A stretch of DNA of 64,000 nucleotides, from assembly GCA_913058495.1 (NCBI GenBank), contig CAJXQC010000016.1:1-64000 (forward strand), written 5' to 3'. Both the position numbers and the translations under genes were made by a program. Below are positions 6,535 to 63,406 of this stretch, one piece after another; the first letter of the stretch is position 1, and each line of letters begins with the position of its first letter. Source of the DNA: an uncultured Balneola sp. GTDB lineage: Bacteria > Bacteroidota > Rhodothermia > Balneolales > Balneolaceae. The notes below the pieces were generated by a model that was given only the letters and a program-made list of their open reading frames with translations, was not told where the DNA came from and searched no databases.

Positions 6535-6576
6535 AAATACAGTAGGGGCGCATGGCCATGCGCCCCTACTGTATTT
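6535..6576. repeat. 42-bp perfect palindrome (REP-like)
   Basis: The sequence from AAATAC through AGTAGGGGCGCATGG to its mirror GTATTT reads the same on both strands over 42 bases. It belongs to the same family as the palindromes at 13285-13320 and 14271-14309, which share a GTAAGGGCGTAT arm. It sits 6 bases from the stop of the radical SAM gene, so it could also end transcription on that strand. Confidence 0.8.
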
Positions 6577-6581
6577 AATTA

Positions 6582-7565
6582 TCAAGCCGAACAACTAGCT
6601 CCACCCAATACACAAAATTGAGCGCAGTAAGGATGATTTAGATAAACCTTTTGGAAAGATTCCTTCAGCGTGGTTCCAAGCTCAAACTGCTCATCGTAAG
6701 CAATTAAAGTACATGGAAGCACAACCGGAGTATCCGTTCCTTTGCGTTTTACCACCATGCGTTCCGTTGCACACATTTGATCAGCAGCTTTGATATTCAG
6801 AATATCCCAGCAATCTGTAGTGATTTCGGGAACATCCTGATCGGTAGTCATTTCCGGGAAGATCACAATGTTTTCACCGCCCGTTACTGTTATTCCAACT
6901 TCATATTCATCCAAAATAGACTGATAACCTTGTAAAGCTTCATCTCTGGATTCATTTTCTAAAGAACGTCCGGCAACAGCAAGATTAAAATCCATTTTTG
7001 AAAGGGTGTTCATTGTTGTCAGCGTTCTATTGAAAGTCTTTGGACCTCTTTCACGTTCATGAACAGATTCCGTATGGTGATCTAAAGAAATACGAAGCGT
7101 TAATTTTCCGGGATATTTCTTATTCAGCACATCCAGTTCATCGAAATGTTTATCAATTGCGCGGTACGCATTGGTGAGAACTAACACATTAAATCCACGT
7201 TCCAAACATAAGTCCAGGATCGGAACCATATCTTTATTCAGAAAGGGTTCACCGCCTGTGAACGAGATCTGTTTTGTACTTAGTTCAAGATCACGAATTT
7301 CATCCAGATAGGTTTTTACTTCATCCGTTGTGATGTATAATAACTCATCGTTGGTTGGAGAAGATTCGATATAACAGTTTTTGCATTGTAGGTTACATCG
7401 GGTTCCCGTATTAAACCAAAGTGTATCCAGATTGGTCAACTCAACATAAGCGCGATCGTCACCTTTGCCCGTAGTTGTTGGTTCTCTGAATTTCCCTTTG
7501 TAGTGAAAATTCTGTTTTATTTCCTGTTCTTTAAGAGATTTCGTTTTCAAATCTTTTAGCAGCAT
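6582..7565 (-). CDS. Radical SAM protein paired with ArsM, ArsS-like
   Basis: 327 residues. The radical SAM cluster motif is CNLQCKNC (Cys57, 61, 64), followed by FTGGEPF at about 102-108. The C-terminus has three more cysteines, CAQFC and GGASC (314, 318, 325), which could bind a second iron-sulfur cluster or the substrate. The ATG overlaps the end of the arsenite methyltransferase gene by 10 bases, so the two are translationally coupled. In arsenosugar synthesis, ArsS is a radical SAM enzyme that attaches a deoxyadenosyl group to methylated arsenic. This protein does not show the ArsS N-terminal pattern I would expect, so the shared role is inferred from its neighbour. Confidence 0.72.
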   Translation of the reverse strand: MLLKDLKTKSLKEQEIKQNFHYKGKFREPTTTGKGDDRAYVELTNLDTLWFNTGTRCNLQCKNCYIESSPTNDELLYITTDEVKTYLDEIRDLELSTKQISFTGGEPFLNKDMVPILDLCLERGFNVLVLTNAYRAIDKHFDELDVLNKKYPGKLTLRISLDHHTESVHERERGPKTFNRTLTTMNTLSKMDFNLAVAGRSLENESRDEALQGYQSILDEYEVGITVTGGENIVIFPEMTTDQDVPEITTDCWDILNIKAADQMCATERMVVKRKGTDTPVVLPCTLIAYDEQFELGTTLKESFQKVYLNHPYCAQFCVLGGASCSA

Positions 7566-8611
7566 GGAGCAGCCTCGTCTGAATTAGTATTTTCTGTGTT
7601 GAAGGGGGCACTTCCACCACAACCTTCAAAAATTCCATAATGGGTGGAAAAGTCACCCCAAAAATCAAAATGTTCTTTAAATCGAGTGTCGTGAAGCATC
7701 ATATATGTATTTCCGCAAACTGTTTTAATACGTCCGGCTTCAAACAAGTGATGATCATCCAGTTCAAAAGCATCTTTGTTATGATCGATGGTTCCTTTGT
7801 AGCGAACTGCCTGACCATAGTCTTCGCAATCACTTTCCAATTTTGGTAATTTCATTAAGCGATAGGTAACGGAGTAGAAATTGATATTCCCTACCTTTTC
7901 CATAAGCTCTTCATCTTCGATGGTAATTCTGTTGGAACTCACTGTGCGGGGATCCAAAAAACCGACATCTTTTGAAATGGTTAAAAAGTCGTTCCAATAG
8001 AGTGCACCACTCAAGCATTCTCCGTATAAAACAGGGTCATCAACAAGATCCTGAGGGACTCTTCGATCAGAGTAAACGTCACTGAAATAGATCTCGCCGC
8101 CTTCTTTCAATAAGTCATAAGCGCCCTGAAGAACTGCTTTTTTATCCGTAGCCAGATTTATTACACAGTTAGAAATGATCAGATCAAGAGATTCTTTTTC
8201 AATATCAAGTTTTCCGAGTTCTTCGATGTTTCCTTTCTGGAACTCAACATTAGCAAACCCGAACTTTTCTGCATGAAAGTCTTTGTGAGCATCAGCTACT
8301 TTTAACTGCTCATCAGTCATATCCACACCGATAACATGGCCATCCTTCCCAACCAATTTGCTCGCTACATAACAATCTCTTCCGGAACCGGATCCTAAAT
8401 CCAGAACTCTTAAACCTTCAAGGTTAGTAGGAATAGTAAGACCACATCCGTAGTATTTTGACATGGTTTCATCATGCAACTGGCTTAAAATATCCTTGAT
8501 ATGTCTTGGGTACTCTATATCGGTACAGCAGGCATTGGTTTTTAGGTCGTCAGATGTCTGCAGAGTTTCCCCGTAATAGGATGAGACCTGATCGTGAATG
8601 TTGTTTTTCAT
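7556..8611 (-). CDS. arsM: Arsenite S-adenosylmethionine methyltransferase with C-terminal extension
   Basis: 351 residues. The SAM-binding Rossmann motif is VLDLGSGSGRDC (69-80). Conserved arsenic-binding cysteines are recognisable: CC at 28-29, YYGCG (Cys56), SNCVINL (Cys149) and YGECLSGALYW (Cys199). It should methylate As(III) stepwise in the cytoplasm. About 90 residues follow the core fold, ending in CGGS and a terminal CC that might deliver arsenic. It is the first gene of a two-gene unit with the overlapping radical SAM gene. A 12-bp palindrome at 8684-8695 lies upstream and might be an operator, but no arsR gene is nearby. Confidence 0.9.
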   Translation of the reverse strand: MKNNIHDQVSSYYGETLQTSDDLKTNACCTDIEYPRHIKDILSQLHDETMSKYYGCGLTIPTNLEGLRVLDLGSGSGRDCYVASKLVGKDGHVIGVDMTDEQLKVADAHKDFHAEKFGFANVEFQKGNIEELGKLDIEKESLDLIISNCVINLATDKKAVLQGAYDLLKEGGEIYFSDVYSDRRVPQDLVDDPVLYGECLSGALYWNDFLTISKDVGFLDPRTVSSNRITIEDEELMEKVGNINFYSVTYRLMKLPKLESDCEDYGQAVRYKGTIDHNKDAFELDDHHLFEAGRIKTVCGNTYMMLHDTRFKEHFDFWGDFSTHYGIFEGCGGSAPFNTENTNSDEAAPCC

Positions 8612-49198: not shown

Positions 49199-49906
49199 AT
49201 GTCAAAATTAGCACTTATTTCTGATGTTCATGGAAATCTCCCAGCATTGGAGGCTGTGCTTGAAGAGCTGGATAAACATGTGCCTGATCATTGGCTTTGT
49301 CTTGGTGATGTTGTTGGATATGGACCTTTTCCGTCTGAATGTATTGACCTGATCCGAGAAAGAAATATACCTACAGTGATGGGGAATCATGATGCCGGGG
49401 TAGCAGGGCTTTTGACTATCAGACACTTTAAAGGTCCAAATAAAGAACTGATTTCTTTAACAAATGAATTGTTGAATAATGACCAGCTTAAGTGGTTAGA
49501 AAAATTACCATATACCCTAGTTAATGACGATAAAAGCTGGCTTGCAGTGCATGCAAACCCGTTGGACCCTAGTAAATGGGAGTATGTAGACAGTGCGATT
49601 AAAGCAAGAAAGATGTTAGGAAAAATAGACCAAAAACTATGTTTTGTAGGGCATACTCATATCCCGGGGATGGTGTCTGATCAAATAGGTGTAATGGAAT
49701 TTAAAGAAGGTCATAAGTATTTAATTAACCCAGGTAGCGTTGGTCAATCAAGGGATGGAGATTTCCGTGCATCCTGTTGTATTATTGATATTGAGAAGTG
49801 GAATGTTGAAATGATTAGAGTTGCATACCCAATGGAGCAAGTACTTACAGGCTTGTATAAACTGGGATTCAGTAGAGCTGAAGCGCATCAATTATTAAGA
49901 TATTAA
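49199..49906 (+). CDS. Metallophosphoesterase (YfcE/MJ0936-like)
   Basis: 235 residues with the five-motif order of calcineurin-like phosphoesterases: DVHGN (8-13), LGDVVGYGP, GNHD, a His near VHANP and GHTHIPG. The subfamily cleaves phosphodiesters such as cyclic nucleotides or phospholipid heads; here the substrate is unknown. It opens the plus-strand sugar locus, just downstream of an AT-rich divergent promoter region shared with wzc. Its presence in a polysaccharide locus may be fortuitous. Confidence 0.85.
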   Translation: MSKLALISDVHGNLPALEAVLEELDKHVPDHWLCLGDVVGYGPFPSECIDLIRERNIPTVMGNHDAGVAGLLTIRHFKGPNKELISLTNELLNNDQLKWLEKLPYTLVNDDKSWLAVHANPLDPSKWEYVDSAIKARKMLGKIDQKLCFVGHTHIPGMVSDQIGVMEFKEGHKYLINPGSVGQSRDGDFRASCCIIDIEKWNVEMIRVAYPMEQVLTGLYKLGFSRAEAHQLLRY

Positions 49907-50557: not shown

Positions 50558-51511
50558 TTGAAAGTAGTAGTAACTGGGGGAGCGGGATTTATTGGAAGCC
50601 ATTTAATAGATAGGCTTTTAGAAGAAGGACATTTCGTCACTAACATTGATAATTTCGATGGCTTCTATAGTGAAAGTATCAAGCGCAGAAATATTGAAGG
50701 TCATATGAAATATGACAACTATAAGATTTGCGAAATCGATATTAGAGATAAAAAAGGGCTCGATGAGGCTATACCGAGTAATATAGATGTAATAGTGCAT
50801 TTAGCTGCAAAAGCTGGTGTTCGCCCTTCAATTGAAGACCCTATAGCTTATCAGGAAGTGAATGTGACTGGGACTCAAAATATGTTGGAGGTAGCTCGTG
50901 AAAAGAAAATCAAACAGTTTGTGTTTGCTTCCTCTAGTTCTGTATATGGTAAAAACCCAAATGTACCATGGAAAGAAGACGATGTAGTTCTACAGCCGAT
51001 TAGTCCTTATGCAAGTACAAAGGTAAGTGGTGAGTTACTAGGCCATGTGTATAGTCATTTATATGATATTCGTTTTATAGCTCTTCGCTTTTTTACAGTA
51101 TATGGTCCTAGGCAACGTCCAGATCTGGCAATACATAAATTTTTAAAATTAATGAACAAGAAAAGTACAATATCTTTGTTTGGAGATGGTACTACTAAAA
51201 GAGATTATACATTCATTGATGATATTGTTAATGGAATTATGAATTCGATTAGCTATCAAGGTAGTCTATATGAAATAATTAATCTAGGAAATAATCAGAC
51301 AGTAAAACTACTTGAGTTGGTTCAAAAACTAGAAGAGATTTCTAAATTCAAAGCTAATATATGTTGGGAGGCAGAACAACCAGGAGATGTTAAGCAGACT
51401 TGGGCTGATGTTACCAAAGCGTCTAAATTAATAAACTACAACTCTAATTTTTCGTTTGATCAAGGACTCCAAGAATTTGTCAAGTGGTTTAAAGAGGTTA
51501 CTGATGAGTGA
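50558..51511 (+). CDS. NAD-dependent sugar epimerase (UDP-glucuronate/UDP-glucose 4-epimerase-like)
   Basis: 317 residues starting at a TTG. VTGGAGFIGSHL (NAD site), YASTK (catalytic Tyr and Lys) and the loop FFTVYGPRQRPDLA are features of extended SDR epimerases such as Gla/GalE types. The catalytic serine loop reads SSSSVYG rather than TDE/SEVYG, so it is an epimerase rather than a 4,6-dehydratase. It would provide an epimerised UDP-sugar for the glycan. The stop overlaps the next start. Confidence 0.85.
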   Translation: MKVVVTGGAGFIGSHLIDRLLEEGHFVTNIDNFDGFYSESIKRRNIEGHMKYDNYKICEIDIRDKKGLDEAIPSNIDVIVHLAAKAGVRPSIEDPIAYQEVNVTGTQNMLEVAREKKIKQFVFASSSSVYGKNPNVPWKEDDVVLQPISPYASTKVSGELLGHVYSHLYDIRFIALRFFTVYGPRQRPDLAIHKFLKLMNKKSTISLFGDGTTKRDYTFIDDIVNGIMNSISYQGSLYEIINLGNNQTVKLLELVQKLEEISKFKANICWEAEQPGDVKQTWADVTKASKLINYNSNFSFDQGLQEFVKWFKEVTDE

Positions 51512-52700
51512 TTATAAATCTGAGATAGTTATAATTGGTTGTGGAATAATAGGAGGAGCTCTTTCATATAAACTTGCGAAATTAGGATATAACGATATTG
51601 TAGTAATAGATAAAGAAAATACTATCAATAAGCATCAAACCGGTCGTAATAGTGGTGTAATTCATTCTGGCGTCTATTACCCGAAAGGCTCATTGAAGTC
51701 TCGTAATTGTATTGATGGTTATAATCAGATTATAGGATTCTTAGATGAATATAAGATTCCATATAAGATTCCTGGTAAACTTATTGTTGCAGCCGATGAA
51801 ACTGAATACGATGAGTTGGAAAGGTTGTACCAGAACGCATTAGATGTTGGTTTGCAGGCAAATCATATGGATCGAGAGGATATACTTAAAATTGACCCTA
51901 ATTTAGTAGGTGATAAAGGATTTTTTGTAAAAGAAACAGGTCTAACGGATTACAAGAAAGTACTGGAGAAGTTTGTAGATGTTGGTAAGGAGCTAGGAGT
52001 ACAATATCTGTTCTCTAGTCCTATTAAAGAAATTACCCGGATGGATAAGGGTTTTCAGATAAGGGCTGGTAATCAAATGATTTCAACTAAGTATCTTATT
52101 AATTGTGCTGGGCTTCAATCTGATCGAGTGTATGAGCTTTCTACTGGGTTAAAATCACCAGTAACTATTATCCCATTTAAAGGTGAGTATTTTAAAGTTC
52201 CAAAAGATTCTTACAACTCAGATGTTGCTATATATCCTGTTCCGAACCCGGATTTCCCTTTTTTAGGTGTGCACTTAACAAGAATGGTAGATGGTACACT
52301 CAAAGTAGGTCCTAATGCAGTTCTTTCATTTTCCAGAGAGGGATATGATGGTTTTGAATTCAATTTAAGGGATGCTATTAGTAATTTTTCTACCCCGACT
52401 TTGTTCAATATTGCAAAAAAATATAAAACCATAGTTGTTAAAGAGCTCTTAAAACATAAGAGTAAATCATTTTTTGAGGAAAGTGTAAAGAAATACTGGA
52501 ATAATTTTGATCGCGAGTCTATAATAGGTTACACGTGTGGAATAAGGGCGCAGGCAACAGAGAAGGGAAAGTTAGTTAATGATTTTAAAATTGTGTGCGA
52601 GAATAATCAGGTTCATGTACTGAATGCACCTTCACCAGCAGCTACATCTTGTTTGTCTATAGCTGATACAATAATTAATGAATTCGAAAATCTTAGGTAA
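51504..52700 (+). CDS. lhgO: L-2-hydroxyglutarate oxidase-like FAD protein
   Basis: 398 residues from the ATG at 51504, which overlaps the previous stop (ATGAGTGA). FAD motif IIGCGIIGGALS, then the TGRNSGVIHSGVYYPKGSLK signature of LhgO and related deaminating/hydroxy-acid oxidases, and a C-terminal NAPSPAATSCLSIA segment. LhgO oxidises L-2-hydroxyglutarate to 2-oxoglutarate at the quinone pool. In some O-antigen pathways sugar dehydrogenases regenerate NAD by reducing 2-oxoglutarate, which could explain the location. That link is inferred. Confidence 0.85.
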   Translation: MSDYKSEIVIIGCGIIGGALSYKLAKLGYNDIVVIDKENTINKHQTGRNSGVIHSGVYYPKGSLKSRNCIDGYNQIIGFLDEYKIPYKIPGKLIVAADETEYDELERLYQNALDVGLQANHMDREDILKIDPNLVGDKGFFVKETGLTDYKKVLEKFVDVGKELGVQYLFSSPIKEITRMDKGFQIRAGNQMISTKYLINCAGLQSDRVYELSTGLKSPVTIIPFKGEYFKVPKDSYNSDVAIYPVPNPDFPFLGVHLTRMVDGTLKVGPNAVLSFSREGYDGFEFNLRDAISNFSTPTLFNIAKKYKTIVVKELLKHKSKSFFEESVKKYWNNFDRESIIGYTCGIRAQATEKGKLVNDFKIVCENNQVHVLNAPSPAATSCLSIADTIINEFENLR

Positions 52701-52717
52701 TAAATCAAATAAATAAT

Positions 52718-53716
52718 ATGTCAAAAAGAAAAGTTTTACTCTTAGGAGGAGCAGGATACGTTGGTGCTGTATTAAGTTCTCATTTATTGAAACAGGGTTA
52801 TAGTGTTCGGGCTTTAGATAATTTTGTATATGAAAATGAATTTGCAGTTGTTCCATATTTTGGAGATCCAGATTACGAGTTTATTAAAGGTGATATTGCA
52901 AATCTAGAGGATGTAGCAAATGCTATCGAAGGAGTAAGTGATGTAGTAATTCTTGCAGGACTTGTAGGAGATCCAATTACTAAGAAGTACCCAGAAGCTT
53001 CAGAGACTATCAATAATATAGGTGTTCAAGATTGTATAAGTTTTCTCAATGGTAAAGGATTGAGTAATGTTATTTTTATTTCTACATGTTCAAATTATGG
53101 TCTGATTAAAGAAGATGAATTAGCTGATGAAGAGTTTGAGTTAAACCCATTATCTCTCTATGCAACTGCTAAAGTTGAAGGAGAGAAACACCTGCTCAAA
53201 ATGTCAGATTCAGCAGACTATACAGGAACGATATTACGTTTTGCGACCGCTTTTGGTTTATCTCCAAGAATGCGATTCGATCTAACAGTAAGTGAATTTA
53301 CCCGAGATTTATTTTTTGGGAAAGAACTTGTAGTGTACGATGAACATACATGGAGGCCATATTGCCATTTGAGAGACTTTTCTAGATTGATACAGATGGT
53401 GCTCGAAGCAGACAAAGCTAAGGTTGACTCGCAAGTATTCAATGCGGGAGGGGATGTAAATAATTTTACCAAAAAAATGATTATTGACGAGATTCAAAAA
53501 CATATTCCTGATAGTAAAATTGTTTACAACGCTAAAGGAAGCGACCCTAGAAATTATAGAGTTTCCTTTAAAAAAGTAAAAGAGGTATTGGGTTTTGAGC
53601 CGAAGTTTACTGTTAAACAAGGAATCAAAGAGTTAGTTGACGCTTTGGAAACAGGACTATATTCAGATTCAAACGAAGCCCCAGAAAAATACGGAAACTA
53701 TCAGATAAGATATTGA
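52718..53716 (+). CDS. NAD-dependent epimerase/dehydratase family protein
   Basis: 332 residues. LLGGAGYVGAVL is the NAD site; STCSNYG and YATAKVEGE give the catalytic Ser, Tyr and Lys. The STCSNYG loop lacks the Asp/Glu of 4,6-dehydratases, so the enzyme is likelier an epimerase or reductase. Its place just before legC invites the label LegB, but the active site does not support it well. Four bases of overlap with the next gene. Confidence 0.75.
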   Translation: MSKRKVLLLGGAGYVGAVLSSHLLKQGYSVRALDNFVYENEFAVVPYFGDPDYEFIKGDIANLEDVANAIEGVSDVVILAGLVGDPITKKYPEASETINNIGVQDCISFLNGKGLSNVIFISTCSNYGLIKEDELADEEFELNPLSLYATAKVEGEKHLLKMSDSADYTGTILRFATAFGLSPRMRFDLTVSEFTRDLFFGKELVVYDEHTWRPYCHLRDFSRLIQMVLEADKAKVDSQVFNAGGDVNNFTKKMIIDEIQKHIPDSKIVYNAKGSDPRNYRVSFKKVKEVLGFEPKFTVKQGIKELVDALETGLYSDSNEAPEKYGNYQIRY

Positions 53717-54867
53717 ACGAAATGAAAAATAGTGGCCTCTTTATTGAATTTGTAAGAGATGCATTTAATACAAAGGAGTTTATTCCTCTACATGAACCTC
53801 GTTTTACAGGTAATGAAAAAAAATATGTATTGGAAACTATCGATTCCACTTTTGTTTCTTCAGTAGGTGCTTTCGTTGACCAGTTTGAGGAAATGATTAA
53901 AACTGTATCAGACACTAAAAAAGGAGTGGCATTAGTTAATGGAACGGCTGCTTTACAGGTAGCTCTTAGATTGGCTGGAGTAAATAAAGGAGACGAGGTT
54001 ATTACTCAAGCTCTTACTTTTGTAGCCACTGCAAATGCCATTAATTATAATCAGGCATCACCTGTCTTTTTAGATGTTGATCTTGATACTATGGGGCTTT
54101 CTCCGTCATCTGTAGAAGCTTTTTTAGATGAACACGCAGAGTTGAGGGAAGATGGTTGTTATAACAAAAAAACAGGCAATAGAATTTCAGCTTGTGTCCC
54201 TATGCATACTTTCGGATTTCCAGTACATATGGATGAATTGTTGAAAGTATGTAGCAAATGGAATGTTCCAATTGTAGAAGATGCTGCAGAATCTATAGGT
54301 TCAAAGTATAAAAATAAACCTACGGGCAGTTTTGGTAAACTTAGTGTTTTTTCGTTCAATGGTAATAAAATTGTTACTGCTGGTGGTGGTGGAGCCATTG
54401 TGACTAATGATATTCAATTAGGAGATTTTGCGAAGTACCTAACTACTACTGCAAAAAAACCACATAAATTTGAATATTTTCACGATGAAGTTGGATATAA
54501 TTATCGAATGCCAAATCTAAATGCTTCTCTAATTTGTGCTCAATTAGAACAATTAGACGATTTTATAGCTAAAAAGAGAGCTTTAGCTAATCGATACGAT
54601 GAATTTTTTAAAGAGGAGGCAATCAACTTCAGAACAGAACTGCCGGATACTTATGCAAATTATTGGCTAATGTGTGTTCAACTCAACAATCTGGAAGAAA
54701 GGAATCAATTTCTTGAAGAGACTAATGGTAAAGGCATAATGACACGGCCAATTTGGAAATTAATGTATAAACTTCCTATGTACTCCCATTGTTTTCGGGA
54801 TGATCAGAAGAACGCAGAGTTTCTAGAAGACAGGATCGTCAATATTCCAAGTAGCGTGATTAATTAA
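53713..54867 (+). CDS. legC: LegC-type sugar aminotransferase (DegT/DnrJ/EryC1)
   Basis: 384 residues from a TTG; an ATG at 53722 would give 381. GTAALQVALRLAGV, TFVATANAI, VEDAAESIGSKY and the PLP lysine in FNGNKIVTAGGGGA are clear. LegC members put an amino group at C4 of a UDP-4-keto sugar in legionaminic acid synthesis. It overlaps the upstream SDR gene and shares one base with the downstream acyltransferase gene (TAATG). Confidence 0.9.
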   Translation: MNEMKNSGLFIEFVRDAFNTKEFIPLHEPRFTGNEKKYVLETIDSTFVSSVGAFVDQFEEMIKTVSDTKKGVALVNGTAALQVALRLAGVNKGDEVITQALTFVATANAINYNQASPVFLDVDLDTMGLSPSSVEAFLDEHAELREDGCYNKKTGNRISACVPMHTFGFPVHMDELLKVCSKWNVPIVEDAAESIGSKYKNKPTGSFGKLSVFSFNGNKIVTAGGGGAIVTNDIQLGDFAKYLTTTAKKPHKFEYFHDEVGYNYRMPNLNASLICAQLEQLDDFIAKKRALANRYDEFFKEEAINFRTELPDTYANYWLMCVQLNNLEERNQFLEETNGKGIMTRPIWKLMYKLPMYSHCFRDDQKNAEFLEDRIVNIPSSVIN

Positions 54868-55487
54868 TGTCTACAGATTTTGTGATAATAGGATATTCTG
54901 GTCATGCTTATGTTGTTATTGAGTCAGCATTTGAATCAAATTTGAATATAATTGGATATACAATGCCCCAAATCTCAAATTCAAATCCATATGATTTAAG
55001 TTATTTAGGCTCTGAAAGTGATGCTAACTTCATCGGTTTAAAAAAGGATTTTAACTACATTTTAGGGGTTGGAGATAACGAAACTAGAGAAAGATTATAC
55101 AATAACCTCATAGCGAACGGAAAAAAAGTATCAAGTGTTATCAATCCCTCAGCAAAAATAGCAGAGAGCGTAGTCATTGGAAAAGGAGTTTTTATTTCTG
55201 CAGGAGCTATCATTAATCCTCAATCTAAGATTAAAGAAGCTGCTATTATTAATTCAGGTGCAATAGTAGAGCATGAATGTGAAATAGATAAAGCTTCACA
55301 TATTGGTCCCGGGGCAGTACTATGTGGGAATGTATATGTTGGAAAAAGAACATTTGTTGGCGCAAATTCTGTTGTTAAACAAGGTGTGAAAATCGGCCAT
55401 GATGCAATTATAGGGGCCGGTACTGTTGTTTTAAGCGATGTAGCAGATAATGATAAGTTGGTAGGTAATCCTGGAAGATTATTATGA
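54867..55487 (+). CDS. NeuD/LegH/PglD-type acetyltransferase
   Basis: 206 residues: an N-terminal Rossmann-like part (VIIGYSGHAYVVIESAF), then a left-handed beta helix of hexapeptide repeats (about 95-200: VVIGKGVFISAGAIINPQSKI and so on). This is the NeuD/PglD plan. In the Leg pathway LegH acetylates the 4-amino sugar made by LegC, and its place here fits that role. It may instead O-acetylate sialic acid, like NeuD. Confidence 0.85.
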   Translation: MSTDFVIIGYSGHAYVVIESAFESNLNIIGYTMPQISNSNPYDLSYLGSESDANFIGLKKDFNYILGVGDNETRERLYNNLIANGKKVSSVINPSAKIAESVVIGKGVFISAGAIINPQSKIKEAAIINSGAIVEHECEIDKASHIGPGAVLCGNVYVGKRTFVGANSVVKQGVKIGHDAIIGAGTVVLSDVADNDKLVGNPGRLL

Positions 55488-56512
55488 GCACACAAAAAGT
55501 TTTGATTATTGCTGAAGCAGGTGTAAATCATAATGGAGATTTAGAGAAAGCGGTAGAGCTCATAAAAGTGGCATCTGCTGCAGGCGCTGATTTCGTAAAA
55601 TTCCAGACTTTCAAAGCTGAAAATATTGTAAGCAGGAAGGCAAAAAAAGCAGCTTATCAGATTCAGAATATGCACGATAATGAATCTCTTCAATTTAATA
55701 TGCTGAAAAATCTTGAGTTAGATGATGACGCTCATCACTTTCTAATTGAAGAGTGCAAAAAACATGATATTGCTTTCTTGTCCACTGCATTCGATGTTGA
55801 GGGAATAGATTATCTAGATACTCTTGGGCTTTCTATTTTTAAATCTCCATCTGGAGAAATTACGAATCGCCCTTATCTTGAACGAATTGCTTCTTTAGGA
55901 AAACCAATTATTTTATCCACAGGTATGGCTAGCTTTGTGGAGGTAGAAGCTGCAATTCAAGTTTTGAATGAAAATGGGGTAAAAAAGGATGATATTACTG
56001 TTTTACACTGTAATACAGAGTATCCAACTCCAATGAAGGATGTAAATTTACATACCATGAATTGGATGTCTGAAAAATTGGGTGTAAGTATTGGCTATTC
56101 AGATCATACTTTAGGAATTGAGGTGCCGATAGCAGCTACTGCACTAGGAGCCAAAGTAATTGAAAAGCATTTTACTTTAGATCGAACGTTGCCGGGTCCT
56201 GATCACAAAGCCTCACTTGAGCCCGATGAATTAAAGAGCATGGTTTTAGGTATTCGTAATATCGAATTGGCTATCTCTGGTGATGGTATAAAAAAGCCTA
56301 CTGAAAGTGAAAAAAAGAATATTGAAATAGCACGAAAAAGCATACATGCCAAAAAAGATTTAGTTATCGGGCAAATTATCTCTGAAAATGATTTGATTCC
56401 ACTTAGACCCGGTTCCGGTATTTCACCAATGGAATGGAATAAAGTTGTTGGTAAAAGAGTTACTAAATCTTGTAGTGCTTTTGAATTACTAACTTGGGAC
56501 ATGTTTGAATGA
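55484..56512 (+). CDS. neuB: Nonulosonic acid synthase (NeuB/LegI family)
   Basis: 342 residues. IIAEAGVNHNGDLEKA, FKSPSGEITN, LHCNTEYPTP and SDHT are diagnostic of sialic acid-type synthases; a SAF/antifreeze-like domain ends the protein (LIPLRPGSGISPMEWNKVVGKR). It condenses a 2,4-diacetamido hexose (Leg) or ManNAc (Neu5Ac) with PEP. The partner LegC suggests legionaminic acid. Overlaps both neighbours by 4 bases. Confidence 0.94.
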   Translation: MSTQKVLIIAEAGVNHNGDLEKAVELIKVASAAGADFVKFQTFKAENIVSRKAKKAAYQIQNMHDNESLQFNMLKNLELDDDAHHFLIEECKKHDIAFLSTAFDVEGIDYLDTLGLSIFKSPSGEITNRPYLERIASLGKPIILSTGMASFVEVEAAIQVLNENGVKKDDITVLHCNTEYPTPMKDVNLHTMNWMSEKLGVSIGYSDHTLGIEVPIAATALGAKVIEKHFTLDRTLPGPDHKASLEPDELKSMVLGIRNIELAISGDGIKKPTESEKKNIEIARKSIHAKKDLVIGQIISENDLIPLRPGSGISPMEWNKVVGKRVTKSCSAFELLTWDMFE

Positions 56513-57615
56513 GAATTGGTTTACTTACAAGTTCTCGCGCTGATTTTGGTATTTATAAACCATTATTGAATTTAATGGTTCTAGAATCAGATATTGAATT
56601 GAAAGTAATTGCATTTGGCACTCACTTATCACCATATCATGGTTATACAATAAATGAAGTCAAGGCGCAGAATTTAAGTGATATCGATGAAATTGATTCA
56701 CTATTATTGGGGGATAATAGCTCAGCTATTTCTACATCTTATGGTTTAACAGTTATCAAGTTTTCAGATTATTGGAATCAGAATAATTTTGATTTGGTTT
56801 TTTGCTTAGGTGATCGATACGAAATGTCAGCTGCTGTTCAGGCTGGAATTCCGTTTGGAGTAAAATTCGCTCACATTCATGGAGGTGAGAAAACCTTAGG
56901 AGCTATAGATAATATTTATAGGCACCAAATAACATTAGCATCTAGTCTCCACTTTACATCAACTCAGAAATACGCAGAAAGAGTTGCAGAATTAATTGAG
57001 TCAGACAAAAATGTGTTCAATGTTGGAGCACTTAGTTTGACTGACTTGGATAAATTCGAATTCGATGGCGAAAAACAATTCAGAGAAAAATTCGGGATAC
57101 CAAAAAAACCTTACTTACTTATAACATTTCATCCAGAGACTGTTAATTCTGTAGTTAACAAACAGTACGTAAATGAATTAGCTAAATCATTAAAAAAAAT
57201 AGTAAGGCAATTCTACTTGGTAATTACTCTTCCAAATGCAGATACTAATGGTTCTTTGTACAGGTCCGCACTACACAATATTAAAAAAGAATTTCCAGAT
57301 AATGTTTTGTTGATCGAAAATTTTGGCAAAGAAAACTATTTTAATGCAATGAAATATTCACAATTCCTTTTAGGAAATACTTCTAGTGGAATTATTGAAG
57401 CAGCATCATTTGGAAAGTATGTGATAAATGTAGGTAATAGACAACTAGGTAGAGTTAAAGGTAAAAATGTTTTTGATTGCGAATTTGAATCTTTATCAAT
57501 TCAAGAATGTGTGAAAAATATATCTATACTAGGTTCTTACAAGGAAGAAAATATTTATGAGGGTACTAATCCAGCAGCTGAGATTATGAAAATAACTAAG
57601 TCATTTATTCAATGA
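56509..57615 (+). CDS. neuC: NeuC/LegG UDP-sugar 2-epimerase, hydrolysing
   Basis: 368 residues of the UDP-GlcNAc 2-epimerase fold: GLLTSSRADFGIYKPLL, CLGDRYEM, HIHGGEKTLGAIDNIYRHQ, TFHPET and GNTSSGIIEAASFG. It hydrolyses the UDP-sugar while inverting C2, giving the free sugar that NeuB uses. It overlaps the genes on both sides by 4 bases. Confidence 0.93.
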   Translation: MRIGLLTSSRADFGIYKPLLNLMVLESDIELKVIAFGTHLSPYHGYTINEVKAQNLSDIDEIDSLLLGDNSSAISTSYGLTVIKFSDYWNQNNFDLVFCLGDRYEMSAAVQAGIPFGVKFAHIHGGEKTLGAIDNIYRHQITLASSLHFTSTQKYAERVAELIESDKNVFNVGALSLTDLDKFEFDGEKQFREKFGIPKKPYLLITFHPETVNSVVNKQYVNELAKSLKKIVRQFYLVITLPNADTNGSLYRSALHNIKKEFPDNVLLIENFGKENYFNAMKYSQFLLGNTSSGIIEAASFGKYVINVGNRQLGRVKGKNVFDCEFESLSIQECVKNISILGSYKEENIYEGTNPAAEIMKITKSFIQ

Positions 57616-58658
57616 GACACTATAAAGAACATTTAATTGTAACAGGTACTAGTATTAGAGATGCTCTTAGCATATTGGATAAGCTGGCACAGGATGCAAT
57701 CTGCTTTGTAGTTAATGATGAGCTTAAGCTTTTAGGGTCGCTCACCGATGGGGATATTAGACGAGGTTTAATAGCTGGAATTGAATTGGATGACACTGTA
57801 GATAGTATAATTCAAAAAGAGCCTAAATTTCTCCGTAAAGGGGATTATGATTTGAATAAAGTAATAGAATACAGAGATAATAATTATAAGGTTATTCCTA
57901 TAGTTACGAAAAAGGGTAAGATCATAAATGTGATTAATTTTCGGCATCTAAAGTCTTATTTACCTATTGATGTAGTTATTATGGCTGGAGGAAAAGGGAC
58001 TAGGCTTAGACCCCTAACTGAAAAGACTCCCAAACCTCTCTTAAAAGTTGGGGAAAAGCCAATACTTGAACATAATATTACAAGACTTGCACTTTTTGGG
58101 ATGGATGACTTTTGGATATCCGTTAACTATTTAGGTGAGCAAATTGAAGAGTATTTTGGAAATGGTAGTGATAACAATTTGAAAATAAATTATGTCTGGG
58201 AGAAGGAACCACTAGGGACTATTGGTGCTGTCTCAAAAATTAAAGACTTTGAACACGATACAGTATTGGTTACTAATTCTGATATTTTGACTAACCTTAA
58301 TTACGAAGATTTTTATTTACGTTTTGTAGAAGAGAACGCAGATTTTGCAGTTATGACAATACCGTATAAGGTAGATGTACCATATGCAGTACTTGAAACT
58401 GATAACGGTCATGTGGTCTCTTTTAAGGAGAAACCTTCTTATACTTACTATTCAAATGGAGGTATATATCTTATGAAGCGCGAATTAGTACACCATATCC
58501 CTGCAAACAGTCATTTCAATACTACGGATTTAATGGAAGAACTGATTGCTAAAGGGAAAAAAGTTATATCCTATCCATTTTCAGGTTACTGGTTAGATGT
58601 TGGAAAGCATGAAGATTTTGCTAAAGCACAAACTGATATTAAGAAGTTAGATATTTGA
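57612..58658 (+). CDS. ptmE: CBS-domain nucleotidyltransferase (PtmE-type)
   Basis: 348 residues. Two CBS repeats fill the first 115 residues, followed by the NTP-transferase core: VIMAGGKGTRLRPLTEKTPKPLL. Fusion of CBS domains with this core is that of PtmE, the glucosamine-1-phosphate guanylyltransferase of the GDP-linked legionaminic pathway. It would feed GDP-GlcN into the pathway, which supports Leg rather than Neu5Ac. CBS domains may bind an adenosyl regulator. Confidence 0.85.
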   Translation: MRHYKEHLIVTGTSIRDALSILDKLAQDAICFVVNDELKLLGSLTDGDIRRGLIAGIELDDTVDSIIQKEPKFLRKGDYDLNKVIEYRDNNYKVIPIVTKKGKIINVINFRHLKSYLPIDVVIMAGGKGTRLRPLTEKTPKPLLKVGEKPILEHNITRLALFGMDDFWISVNYLGEQIEEYFGNGSDNNLKINYVWEKEPLGTIGAVSKIKDFEHDTVLVTNSDILTNLNYEDFYLRFVEENADFAVMTIPYKVDVPYAVLETDNGHVVSFKEKPSYTYYSNGGIYLMKRELVHHIPANSHFNTTDLMEELIAKGKKVISYPFSGYWLDVGKHEDFAKAQTDIKKLDI

Positions 58659-59344
58659 AATATTTGGTAATAATACCGGCACGTGGAGGTTCAAAAGGGG
58701 TGCCCGGTAAAAATATAAGACCGCTTAACGGAAAACCATTAATTCATTACACAGTCGAGGCTGCGAGAAGCTTGTTTAATGACTCCGATATATGTGTGTC
58801 AACTGATTCGGACGAAATAAAAAAAGTAGTTGAACAGATAGGATTAAAGGTCCCTTTTATAAGACCGAAAGAATTGTCGCAAGATAGCTCTGGTTCGCAT
58901 GAAGTGATATTACATGCTTTAGATTTTTACGAAAAAAAAGGATTTGAACCCGAAGCAGTAATATTATTACAACCCACATCGCCTTTAAGAACAGCTAAAC
59001 ATATAGACGAGGCTGTGAAATTGTTTGGACCTAGTTTAGATATGGTAGTATCTGTTAAGGAATCTTCTTCAAACCCATATTATAATTTATTTGAAGAAGA
59101 TTCCTCTGGGTTTTTAAAAAAATCCAAGAAAGGAAGTTTTGTGAGAAGACAAGATTGTCCTCCTGTTTGGGAATATAATGGAGCTATTTATGTGATAAAT
59201 GTGAATTCCATAAAGAAGAACCGCCTACATAAACTCAGTAATATAAAAAAATATGTCATGGATGATATTTCTTCCATAGATATTGATACAGAACTAGATT
59301 TTAAATTGGCTGAGTTTATTATGACTAATAAATATTATTTATGA
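58655..59344 (+). CDS. neuA: CMP-nonulosonic acid synthetase (NeuA/LegF)
   Basis: 229 residues from a TTG that overlaps the previous stop. IIPARGGSKGVPGKNIRPLNGKPL is the CMP-acylneuraminate cytidylyltransferase signature; LQPTSPLRTAKHI follows. It activates the nonulosonic acid with CTP for transfer to a glycan. The four-base overlap with the next gene continues the operon. Confidence 0.93.
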   Translation: MKYLVIIPARGGSKGVPGKNIRPLNGKPLIHYTVEAARSLFNDSDICVSTDSDEIKKVVEQIGLKVPFIRPKELSQDSSGSHEVILHALDFYEKKGFEPEAVILLQPTSPLRTAKHIDEAVKLFGPSLDMVVSVKESSSNPYYNLFEEDSSGFLKKSKKGSFVRRQDCPPVWEYNGAIYVINVNSIKKNRLHKLSNIKKYVMDDISSIDIDTELDFKLAEFIMTNKYYL

Positions 59345-60498
59345 TAGAGGCAGTAATATTAATAGCATACATAAGCTTTTTTTCATTTTATTTTATTCTA
59401 AGTAAAAAGAAAGAAATGGCGAGTTTTTCTGTGCTTATCATTACAAGTGGATTAGTATATGTAAGTTCGGTTATTTCCTTAATTATTAGTCTGGGTTATT
59501 TCCTTTTTCGTTTAAAACTCAGTTTTAAAGTCATTCTCTATATTACGGCATCAATAATAATTTTTAGTTCCCATTTAATCATCCAAAAATCATATATAAT
59601 TAATATTAACGAGTTTTTGCAGATACAAGTTTTTGCAATACTGTTTCTGTTGATGATTAACTATAAAAATAAAATATCAGCTTACTATAGGAAAAATATT
59701 TGCCGTGGTTTTTTAATTGGATCTCTAATAATTACATTTTTTTTGGTAGTGCAAGCGGGAGGAGATCTAAAGTTATTACAAACGGATTATCAATACTTTA
59801 ATATATCAAATACATTTAATTACTCAGCGATTTACTTGTTTTTTGGATTAATTGCCGCTCCTTATAAATTAGTTTTAAAGTATAAATACAGGCTAATTTT
59901 GTTTGCGTTATTTTTACTATCTGTTTTTATTTTTCAATCAAGAGCGTCACTTATACTGGGTACCATATTTTTTATTTATTTAAACCAACCGAAAGCTAGG
60001 TTATATAAATGGCTTATATATATTCCTTTAATCGCAATATCGATAGTTTATATTATTGATTCAGGTGTTTTTAACCCTGACGATCCGAATGACATCTTAT
60101 ATTCGATTACTGATTTAGAAAATAATACTAGTAACATTGAAAGAATCAGAATGATAACCTCTAGTTTTTCCAGTCTTGCAGATTATCCTTCTGGATGGGG
60201 AGTAGGGATGTCAGATATTGCACTCAAAAATTATAACATTATGAGCCCTCATGCCCATAATGTTATAGCAAATTGGTTATTTGAGTTTGGTTTAATGGGG
60301 GTAATTATCTCGATTTTATTTTACTATGTACTGTACAGTATGTATCGAGTTAATTCTGACAAATATTCGTTATCAATTCTAACTTTTATTTCAACGTATT
60401 CTATAGTTGAAACTTTGCAGTATAACATATTGGTTACATTGACAATCTATTTTGCATTAATGACATTGACAAATTCAAAAAAGCTAGCTAGTAAATGA
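59341..60498 (+). CDS. wzy: Wzy-like polysaccharide polymerase
   Basis: 385 residues with about ten membrane helices and little charge. A longer extracytoplasmic loop near 260-310 (SGWGVGMSDIALKNYNIMSPHAHNVIANWLFEFG) has the HNxxLxxxxxxG-type pattern of O-antigen ligases/polymerases. It probably joins repeat units in the periplasm. Sequence identity in this family is very low, so the call depends on topology, that loop and location. Confidence 0.7.
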   Translation: MIEAVILIAYISFFSFYFILSKKKEMASFSVLIITSGLVYVSSVISLIISLGYFLFRLKLSFKVILYITASIIIFSSHLIIQKSYIININEFLQIQVFAILFLLMINYKNKISAYYRKNICRGFLIGSLIITFFLVVQAGGDLKLLQTDYQYFNISNTFNYSAIYLFFGLIAAPYKLVLKYKYRLILFALFLLSVFIFQSRASLILGTIFFIYLNQPKARLYKWLIYIPLIAISIVYIIDSGVFNPDDPNDILYSITDLENNTSNIERIRMITSSFSSLADYPSGWGVGMSDIALKNYNIMSPHAHNVIANWLFEFGLMGVIISILFYYVLYSMYRVNSDKYSLSILTFISTYSIVETLQYNILVTLTIYFALMTLTNSKKLASK

Positions 60499-61742
60499 TT
60501 AAGTCTATAGCATCTTTGTTTACTTCTTCTTTAATAGGTAGAATTATTGGGTTTTTTCGTTTTCAATTACTTGTGTTTTTCTTTAGTCAAACACAGTTTA
60601 CTGATAAAATAATTTATACAACTACACTAATTTGGACTTTAAATAACTTTTTTGTCATCCCTAATGTAAATAAAAGTTTAATTGCAGATCTGAGTAGTTC
60701 AACAAAACATAATTACTCGTCAATAATTAGGTATACTTCAAAAGTTGCTTTAAGAAGCGGGGTTTTTGCAGGTATTATTTCAGTTTTAATTATCCTTTTC
60801 TTACAAATGACCGGTAGTGGGTTAAATTTCAAACCTTTAGACTTAATACTAATATTTATAATTGTAATATGTTTAGGTCAAAATGAAGTCTTTAGTCTGT
60901 ATAATCAATTTAGGAAAAGATTCTTTTTGTATGCCTTAAATCCAGCGGTTTGGAATAGTGTTTTAATAGGAGGTATTTTAACAATGTGGCTCCTTGCAAG
61001 TACTGATTTATATATCTACTTGATCTTTTTATTGATTGCAATCCTATTGACATTGTTTATGCAATACAATAAAGTTGATGTTCTACTTGGCAAACAGAGT
61101 TTAGTTAAAATTAGAGAGACCGAAAAAGTAAAGTTGCCTGCAAAAAACTATTGGTATAATGGAGTAGTTATTCTTTTTATGGGGACAACTTTTTTAGATT
61201 TGAATTTTATAACGGTTTTTTCAGTAGCAGGGATTGTAACTGTATATACAATTCTATTAAAAATTCCTGAATTGATGCTTTCTATAATAAATGGATCAGT
61301 TCAGCCTGTTTTTTTTAATTCAATCATGGATAATCAAGGTCGTTTAAAAAATAATTTTAGTCGCTTTCTTCTATTGAGTTTAGTTGCATTTACCTTAATG
61401 GGATTGTTTTTATTCGTATTTAAATATCAATTATATCAATACTTATTTAATTTCCAGATTGCAGGTTTCGAGTCTAGCTTATTATTAGTATTAATTATGG
61501 CATTCTTTGCCTCGTTTAGCTATATGATTGTACGTTTAAGTGAAGAGTTTAAGTATTCTAAGAGTTTATTTTTTGTCGCTTTGATAATGATAGTCATTAA
61601 GATTTTTATGATAGTAACTTTTGATTTTAGTCTTAATATGATCATTTATACAAATATAGCAACATATGTCTGTATTACATTAATAGGACTTTATTTTCTA
61701 TTTATAAGAAAAAACACTCATATTTTAAATATACTGGATTAA
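60495..61742 (+). CDS. wzx: Wzx-like flippase (MATE/MOP superfamily)
   Basis: 415 residues with about twelve membrane helices. Pairs of helices such as IGRIIGFFRFQLLVFFF, LILIFIIVICLGQNEVFSLYNQF and GTTFLDLNFITVFSVAGIVTVYTILLKIPEL fit the MOP flippase superfamily (Wzx/MurJ). It would move lipid-linked repeat units across the inner membrane for the Wzy-like polymerase. Location supports this; sequence alone is weak. Confidence 0.7.
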   Translation: MIKSIASLFTSSLIGRIIGFFRFQLLVFFFSQTQFTDKIIYTTTLIWTLNNFFVIPNVNKSLIADLSSSTKHNYSSIIRYTSKVALRSGVFAGIISVLIILFLQMTGSGLNFKPLDLILIFIIVICLGQNEVFSLYNQFRKRFFLYALNPAVWNSVLIGGILTMWLLASTDLYIYLIFLLIAILLTLFMQYNKVDVLLGKQSLVKIRETEKVKLPAKNYWYNGVVILFMGTTFLDLNFITVFSVAGIVTVYTILLKIPELMLSIINGSVQPVFFNSIMDNQGRLKNNFSRFLLLSLVAFTLMGLFLFVFKYQLYQYLFNFQIAGFESSLLLVLIMAFFASFSYMIVRLSEEFKYSKSLFFVALIMIVIKIFMIVTFDFSLNMIIYTNIATYVCITLIGLYFLFIRKNTHILNILD

Positions 61743-61744
61743 CA

Positions 61745-63406
61745 ATGTGTGGGATTGTTGGATATTTAGGGAACAAGATCGATCTAATTAATACAAATGA
61801 TTTAATGAGTGGTATTGCTCATCGAGGTCCAGATGAGACTGGAGAATATCGATCAGAGGGTGTTTTTTTAGGTCATAAAAGACTTAGCATTGTAGGGTTG
61901 AGTGATGGGCAGCAGCCATTTACCATAGATAATTATGTATTAGTTTTTAACGGAGAGATATATAATTATCAAGAGCTAAGAATTGTTTTACTCGAAAAAA
62001 ACGTTGTTTTTGATACAAACTCAGACACAGAAGTTTTATTGAAGGCTTATATACATCTGGGGAATGATTTTGTAGACTATTTGGATGGGATGTATGCATT
62101 TTTTATTTATAACAAGTCTACAGGAGAGGGAGTATATGCACGTGATAATTTAGGGATCAAGCCACTTTATATATGGGGAGTAAATAATGAATTTGCGTTT
62201 TCAAGTGAAGCATTACCCTTAATAAAACTACAAAAGTTGTTAAACCCGAAAGACTTTCGAATATCAGAATATGCATTAAGTCATTATTTAAATCATGGTC
62301 ATACGTCAGATATTCCCATTACGGATCAAATTCGAATGGTTCCTAAAGGGGTTCTTTTTCATTATTTAAATGGTCAAAGCACTAAGATCAAGGAGATTGA
62401 TTTTTCTTATGATATTGGTAAAAAAAATGACTTAGCGATCTTTAAAGATGAAGTACGGCAACAGCTTCATGCAGATGTTGATGTTGGGATTTTTCTTAGT
62501 GGTGGTATAGATTCAAGTTTACTAACAGGAATAGGTGCATCCATCAGAAACAATGTTAAAACTTTTTCTATAGCTTTTGATGGTCATAAAGGAGTTGATG
62601 AGTCAGAATTTTCGCGCGAAGTCAGTAAGAAATTTGGGACGGAGCATACAGAGTTTCTTTTTGATGAGTCTACTTTATTAAAATACATTCCAGATTTGAT
62701 AAACTGTATGGACTTACCAGTTTGTGACCCGGCAATGTTGCCAATGTTATATTTATGTGAGCAAACTAAGGAAGAAATTAAAGTTGTACTCAGTGGGGAC
62801 GGTGGGGATGAATTATTTGGAGGTTATACTCATCATCGTATAGTTAAATACAAACGCTTTTTTAAAGCTTTATATTTGGTACTAGGAATGGTAGCTTTTG
62901 TTCAAACTTTCAAGAAGCTTAGAAAAACTATTCAGGAGTTGATTTATTATGTTGAAAAACATGAATTTCCAGAGTATGATATTTATCATAATTTAGATTA
63001 TAGGTTATTACGTAAAACAGATCTTACTTCTATGTACTTTGGACTTGAAGTTAGAGTGCCGTTTTTGAGTAAGAGAGTTTTTGCGCTATCAAGAAAGAAA
63101 AACTATTGGGATTACGTTGGATTTCTTTATGGTAAAAAGTCATTGAGAAAACTTGTAGGAAAATTGGTGAACCGTAAAATTGCTTACAAAAAGAAGCAGG
63201 GTTTTCGGATACCGCTTAAGGAATGGGTTACGAATGGAGAGTTAGGCAAAATGGTTACTGAATCATTAAGCAGAAAGTTATGTATTTCGGAGGAGCTTAT
63301 TGACAACTCTACCTTAAGAGAGATGTTAAATGATAAGCCTACATATTATAATCGCCTGTTTTCATTATATCTGCTAAATGAATGGCTTAATAGAATAAAA
63401 AATTAA
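61745..63406 (+). CDS. asnB: Asparagine synthase (glutamine-hydrolysing)-like
   Basis: 553 residues. MCGIVGYLG with the N-terminal nucleophile Cys2, RGPDETGEY, and the ATP loop FLSGGIDSS, then LSGDGGDELFGGY. In glycan loci AsnB-like enzymes amidate sugar carboxylates rather than make asparagine, so the product may be an amide on a uronic or nonulosonic acid. Which one applies cannot be said from sequence. It starts 2 bases after the wzx stop. Confidence 0.9.
   Translation: MCGIVGYLGNKIDLINTNDLMSGIAHRGPDETGEYRSEGVFLGHKRLSIVGLSDGQQPFTIDNYVLVFNGEIYNYQELRIVLLEKNVVFDTNSDTEVLLKAYIHLGNDFVDYLDGMYAFFIYNKSTGEGVYARDNLGIKPLYIWGVNNEFAFSSEALPLIKLQKLLNPKDFRISEYALSHYLNHGHTSDIPITDQIRMVPKGVLFHYLNGQSTKIKEIDFSYDIGKKNDLAIFKDEVRQQLHADVDVGIFLSGGIDSSLLTGIGASIRNNVKTFSIAFDGHKGVDESEFSREVSKKFGTEHTEFLFDESTLLKYIPDLINCMDLPVCDPAMLPMLYLCEQTKEEIKVVLSGDGGDELFGGYTHHRIVKYKRFFKALYLVLGMVAFVQTFKKLRKTIQELIYYVEKHEFPEYDIYHNLDYRLLRKTDLTSMYFGLEVRVPFLSKRVFALSRKKNYWDYVGFLYGKKSLRKLVGKLVNRKIAYKKKQGFRIPLKEWVTNGELGKMVTESLSRKLCISEELIDNSTLREMLNDKPTYYNRLFSLYLLNEWLNRIKN

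Follow-up and report, generated by a model that had tools for sequence, protein, structure and literature searches.

The overlapping arsM and radical SAM genes described here, which lie in a 64,000-nucleotide stretch of DNA from an uncultured Balneola sp. (hereafter the window), probably encode the opening steps of an arsenosugar-type pathway that uses, in place of ArsS, a member of an unnamed family of radical SAM proteins recognized by sequence comparison. On balance, we also favour the broader view that this second radical SAM family, with a C-terminal domain unlike that of ArsS, forms the bond between arsenic and the adenosyl group in arsenosugars (or yields a new arsenic product) in about one third of the sampled Alphaproteobacteria, including marine lineages, and that it has been swapped with ArsS at least two times in otherwise conserved pathways.

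Structure of the gene pair

Both open reading frames were found at 6582-8611 with the 10-base overlap that the original prediction had described, and their features are listed in Table 1. The overlap, in which arsM ends and the radical SAM frame begins, suggests that the two genes are translationally coupled. A survey of gene pairs in related genomes, proposed as a check together with the original prediction, recovered the overlapping pair in Balneola relatives, where it is kept at ArsM identities of 72-99%, and in an Oligoflexales genome (L060), where the identities are 58% for ArsM and 46% for the radical SAM protein. The palindrome directly 3' of the radical SAM stop codon is perfect and GC-rich, occurs once in the window against 0 copies expected by chance, and is possibly the terminator of the radical SAM gene.

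Table 1 Features of the gene pair and its 3' flank (window coordinates)
Feature	Position	Strand	Basis or remark
Palindrome GGGGCGCATGGCCATGCGCCCC, possible terminator	6541..6570		directly 3' of the radical SAM stop codon
Candidate ArsS-equivalent, unnamed radical SAM protein, 327 aa	6582..7565	-	ORF, profiles, alignment, model
C-terminal motif NHPxCxxFCxLGGxSC (C314, C318, C325)	6591..6626	-	invariant Cys
C-terminal domain cysteines C252, C265, C285	6711..6812	-	invariant
Radical SAM CxxxCxxC motif, CNLQCKNC (C57, C61, C64)	7374..7397	-	invariant in 40 members
10-base overlap ATGCTGCTAA	7556..7565	-	arsM Cys-Cys-stop and radical SAM start
Long algal-type ArsM, As(III) S-adenosylmethionine methyltransferase, 351 aa	7556..8611	-	phmmer to 5evj
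Four canonical ArsM cysteines (C28, C56, C149, C199)	8015..8530	-	alignment, Cys listing

The pathway cluster genes were searched across the window and gave no further strong match; a metallophosphoesterase ORF at 49199-49906 matched the cluster phosphoesterase weakly (23%, E 5e-7) and was not counted. The lack of nearby arsR, arsB and arsC, noted in the original prediction, was followed up by reading the ORF lists of the window alone. From the same kind of reading, NeuB-like, NeuC-like and nucleotidyltransferase ORFs were noted at 50558-63406, a likely surface-polysaccharide cluster, and they suggest a nonulosonic acid pathway there.

The long ArsM

By phmmer, the window ArsM aligned with the arsenite methyltransferase 5evj over residues 7-335 (347 bits, E 1e-102). 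Its cysteines stand at positions 28, 29, 56, 80, 149, 199, 262, 299, 331, 350 and 351, and the full-length similarity to a solved ArsM and the four conserved cysteines place it among the long algal ArsMs (5evj and 4fr0), from which it differs in that its gene overlaps a radical SAM gene. Cys56, Cys149 and Cys199 had been named correctly in the original prediction, which overlooked the fourth canonical cysteine, Cys28 (aligned with its counterpart in 5evj), and the C-terminal domain that it regarded as extra belongs to the usual make-up of long ArsMs such as 5evj and 4fr0. The predicted CC ending was seen in 19 of the 19 distinct long ArsM C-termini compared, one of them from a short contig on which no radical SAM gene was present; this conservation refers to bacterial relatives of the window ArsM. 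The score against PRK11873 (NF008823) was 180.6 bits with a cut-off of 263; the long ArsM subfamily lies outside that model.

A radical SAM family outside the available models

Among its best 25 of 74 NCBIfam matches, the window radical SAM protein is under every cut-off, the closest model being Rv1681 (NF049973), with 84.1 bits against a cut-off of 380. The ArsS model TIGR04167, also among the nearest, gave 61.3 bits against a cut-off of 300. Only Radical_SAM and Fer4_12 were detected by Pfam, which found in this protein neither a SPASM domain nor DUF3641 (PF12345), the latter being present in the ArsS of genome G246. The score and the lack of DUF3641 bear out the earlier statement that the protein does not display the known ArsS pattern.

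The new family is real and tight. Nine cysteines (57, 61, 64, 252, 265, 285, 314, 318 and 325) are invariant in 40 aligned diverse members, and the conserved blocks include TLWFNTG, CYIxSSP and NHPxCxxFCVLGGxSC; the CNLQCKNC motif and the group at 314, 318 and 325 had already been recognized, and C252, C265 and C285 are additional to them. The AlphaFold model of the window protein is confident (pLDDT 91), and a search for a close structural match in the PDB returned only general SPASM/twitch-type radical SAM enzymes, the nearest solved folds being SkfB and SuiB (Z about 19) and BlsE. No ArsS structure was found by PDB sequence search, no match to the family was found in the phage records searched, and no description of it was found in a literature search that covered few subscription papers.

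At two loci (L042:5056-6915 and L207:7992-10145) the radical SAM enzyme carries an N-terminal metallophosphoesterase as a fusion; where the ORF of the gene extends upstream elsewhere (L185, L200, L210, L218 and others), the extension contained no phosphoesterase. In one Balneola MAG (G054, L040:6001-6949) the radical SAM gene is split between two frames, through a frameshift or an assembly error.

Relationship to ArsS and Rv1681

The radical SAM core of the new family is related to that of ArsS (TIGR04167), with an hhalign probability of 98.8 over residues 44-227. Profiles of the two families scored 36-70 bits against each other, in the core only, and 2-35 bits against MoaA, AslB, YdeM and another radical SAM protein. 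The CxxxCxxC motif is common to both, as is a Cys-rich C-terminal segment ending in GxSC, which reads HCxxCTAGxGSSC in ArsS. By our own mapping, the final cysteine of ArsS likely corresponds to the site occupied by selenocysteine in certain members, in which a GxxU motif is described (PMC13188914). An ArsS-like C-terminal domain was considered and rejected: the hhalign score of 12.7, against a mean of 12.0 and a maximum of 24.5 for shuffled sequences, is not significant, and homology of the C-terminal domains is therefore not claimed. The families share genomic partners and are mutually exclusive, but ArsS carries DUF3641, which the new family lacks, and in carriers of the new family the Balneolaceae locus has no TIGR04169 peroxidase; the new enzyme is often paired with a long ArsM or a phosphoesterase. 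When a canonical ArsS was sought in the genome of the window, the sole TIGR04167 match was the window radical SAM gene itself, far under the cut-off. The new enzyme is best filed under an unnamed radical SAM family with an ArsS-like function, and not under ArsS itself.

The Rv1681 family (NF049973), although the best NCBIfam match of the new family (84-95 bits), resembles it in the core region only, and the scores stay far from the 380-bit cut-off. We know of no reaction for the Rv1681 family.

Distribution of the new family and of ArsS

In the Balneolaceae set (45 genomes, drawn from one sample of 394), 13 genomes carry the new gene, 25 others carry ArsS, 7 have neither and none has both. ArsS is accordingly present in 0 of 13 carriers against 25 of 32 non-carriers, with a Fisher p of 1e-6 that overstates independence, since the exclusion amounts to about one replacement, with further losses; in a neighbour-gene tree the Balneolaceae carriers occupy one region. 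TIGR04282 was found in all 13 carriers. The locus order in ArsS-bearing Balneolaceae is c2, <c5, TIGR04169 peroxidase, ArsS, TIGR04282, TIGR04283, c7, c8, and 8 of the 8 carriers examined, including the genome of the window (contig 5), keep this order minus the peroxidase and ArsS. A second TIGR04283 gene over its cut-off occurs in the genome of the window on contig 11 (L094:8188-9791), where it adjoins a DUF547 gene.

Among 215 alphaproteobacterial genomes, the new gene was found in 64, TIGR04282 in 80 and both in 61, so that TIGR04282 is present in 61/64 carriers against 19/151 non-carriers (p 1e-32, a value that ignores kinship). ArsS was detected in only 2 of the 215, both without the new gene, and in 0 of the 19 carriers outside Balneolota. 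Members of the new family were also found in Rhodobacterales and in one Pelagibacterales MAG. TIGR04282 is an imperfect marker, since 17 alphaproteobacterial genomes possess it with neither ArsS nor the new enzyme and five Balneolaceae (L127, L128, L129, L130 and L131) possess the TIGR04282/TIGR04283 pair in the same situation, ArsS having been lost from their locus with no gain of the new gene. In these genomes a third enzyme may be at work, or TIGR04282/TIGR04283 may serve some other purpose.

No recognizable ArsM, of either the long or the PRK11873 type, was found in 12 of the 32 carriers examined, some of whose genomes are incomplete; the 12 comprise three Balneolaceae (G065, G135 and G187) and nine alphaproteobacterial genomes. 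The coupling to arsM in the original prediction therefore stands as a real overlapping pair and not as a universal one, the family being broader than this coupled arrangement. ArsM may be missing because the genome has gaps, because the methyltransferase is divergent, because methylated arsenic is taken up, or because the substrate is a different one.

Genes accompanying the new family

Within 8 kb of the new gene at 84 carrier loci, TIGR04282 was found 13 times, TIGR04283 11 times, a flavin oxidoreductase 9 times, a phosphoesterase 6 times, and an MTAP-like phosphorylase, VTT and ArsM 5 times each, where a rough estimate gives about 0.4 loci expected per gene. The new family thus has the genomic link to the TIGR04282/TIGR04283 glycosyltransferases that is a trait of ArsS; the arsenosugar role of these two families is an NCBI annotation by association, not by experiment.

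Two alphaproteobacterial ArsS clusters contain TIGR04282, a flavin oxidoreductase, ArsS, GT2, a phosphoesterase, PhnD/PhnE and a second flavin oxidoreductase, and one of the two also contains a nucleoside phosphorylase. The same partner families, without ArsS, surround the new enzyme on a Roseomonas plasmid and at L044 (with TIGR04282 scoring above its cut-off), and the partners shared with the ArsS clusters are 60-63% (PhnD), 51-52% (phosphoesterase) and 54% (phosphorylase) identical. As to the uptake of methylated arsenic, an arsenate or methylarsonate might be a suitable substrate for the PhnD-type transporter that the Roseomonas cluster has in common with the ArsS clusters. The Roseomonas cluster also encodes a second radical SAM protein of 459 aa (L247:7592-8971), which overlaps the start of the family member and has TrsS and Tes as its best NCBIfam matches, both under cut-off.

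Proposed reaction and alternative explanations

An organoarsenic pathway, as originally predicted, is the best reading. That prediction had left the choice between a divergent ArsS and a different arsenic modification; mutual exclusion, the glycosyltransferase locus minus ArsS and the shared cluster partners favour a functional equivalent of ArsS. Most likely, as far as can be judged from sequence, the enzyme joins the 5'-deoxyadenosyl group of SAM to methylated arsenic(III), a transfer favoured by the exchange with ArsS and by the MTAP-like phosphorylase. In the proposed route, ArsM would methylate arsenite to methyl- and dimethylarsenite with SAM, an established activity of this ArsM type. 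The radical SAM enzyme would then cleave SAM at its [4Fe-4S] cluster and add the 5'-deoxyadenosyl radical to trivalent methylated arsenic, giving 5'-deoxy-5'-dimethylarsinoyl-adenosine, and its C-terminal cysteines may hold the methylated arsenic. An MTAP-like phosphorylase, encoded elsewhere in the genome or, in other bacteria, in the same cluster, would remove adenine, and the head of the final arsenosugar or arsenolipid would be assembled by the TIGR04282/TIGR04283 glycosyltransferases together with a phosphoesterase.

The carriers without a recognizable ArsM keep alive the explanation that the enzyme serves an unnamed pathway of sugar modification with TIGR04282/TIGR04283, acting on a non-arsenic substrate (phosphite, phosphonate or another Phn-imported oxyanion), with ArsM as an optional partner. 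The PhnD/PhnE/PhnC phosphonate-type transporter of the Roseomonas cluster would also fit it; however, two genomes have the same Phn genes next to canonical ArsS, two distant lineages have overlapping arsM pairs and four more genomes have arsM nearby, and the family excludes ArsS, and we regard this explanation as unlikely. We give very little credence to a peptide or cofactor maturase of SPASM/twitch-like type that has no link to arsenic and stands beside arsM only by accident. Such a role would agree with the nearest folds, SkfB, SuiB and BlsE, and with generic matches to maturases under their cut-offs, but Pfam detected no SPASM domain and no peptide partner was seen, the overlapping arrangement has been kept and the pair is found again in other genomes, and the association with arsenosugar genes is strong.

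A different carbon-arsenic bond has also to be weighed. ArsS adenosylates arsenic, and ArsL transfers the 3-amino-3-carboxypropyl group (PMC12159101); in arsQML the radical SAM gene arsL stands beside arsM, and ArsL is a protein of 428 aa with only three conserved cysteines and one cluster (PMC8552651). The pairing of the new gene with arsM resembles arsQML. On this reading, the new enzyme would likewise move a 3-amino-3-carboxypropyl group from SAM to As(III), with methylation by ArsM afterwards, and inorganic arsenite as its substrate would agree with the carriers that lack ArsM. We nevertheless consider this improbable: the MTAP-like phosphorylase and the TIGR04282/TIGR04283 linkage point to an adenosyl or ribosyl product, the enzyme is exchanged with ArsS in otherwise alike clusters, and, by its description, ArsL differs from the new family with its nine invariant cysteines and is accompanied by a different type of ArsM, the window ArsM scoring 153.6 bits against the arsinothricin ArsM model (cut-off 500). 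ArsL was not among the best 25 of 74 NCBIfam matches of the window radical SAM protein.

Implications

Much of the organic arsenic in marine food chains takes the form of arsenosugars and arsenolipids. Surveys based on ArsS (TIGR04167) would miss the new radical SAM family. If it is equivalent to ArsS, about 64 of the 215 sampled alphaproteobacterial genomes would join the 2 already credited with arsenosugar synthesis, and two radical SAM families would be available for comparing how enzymes build carbon-arsenic bonds.
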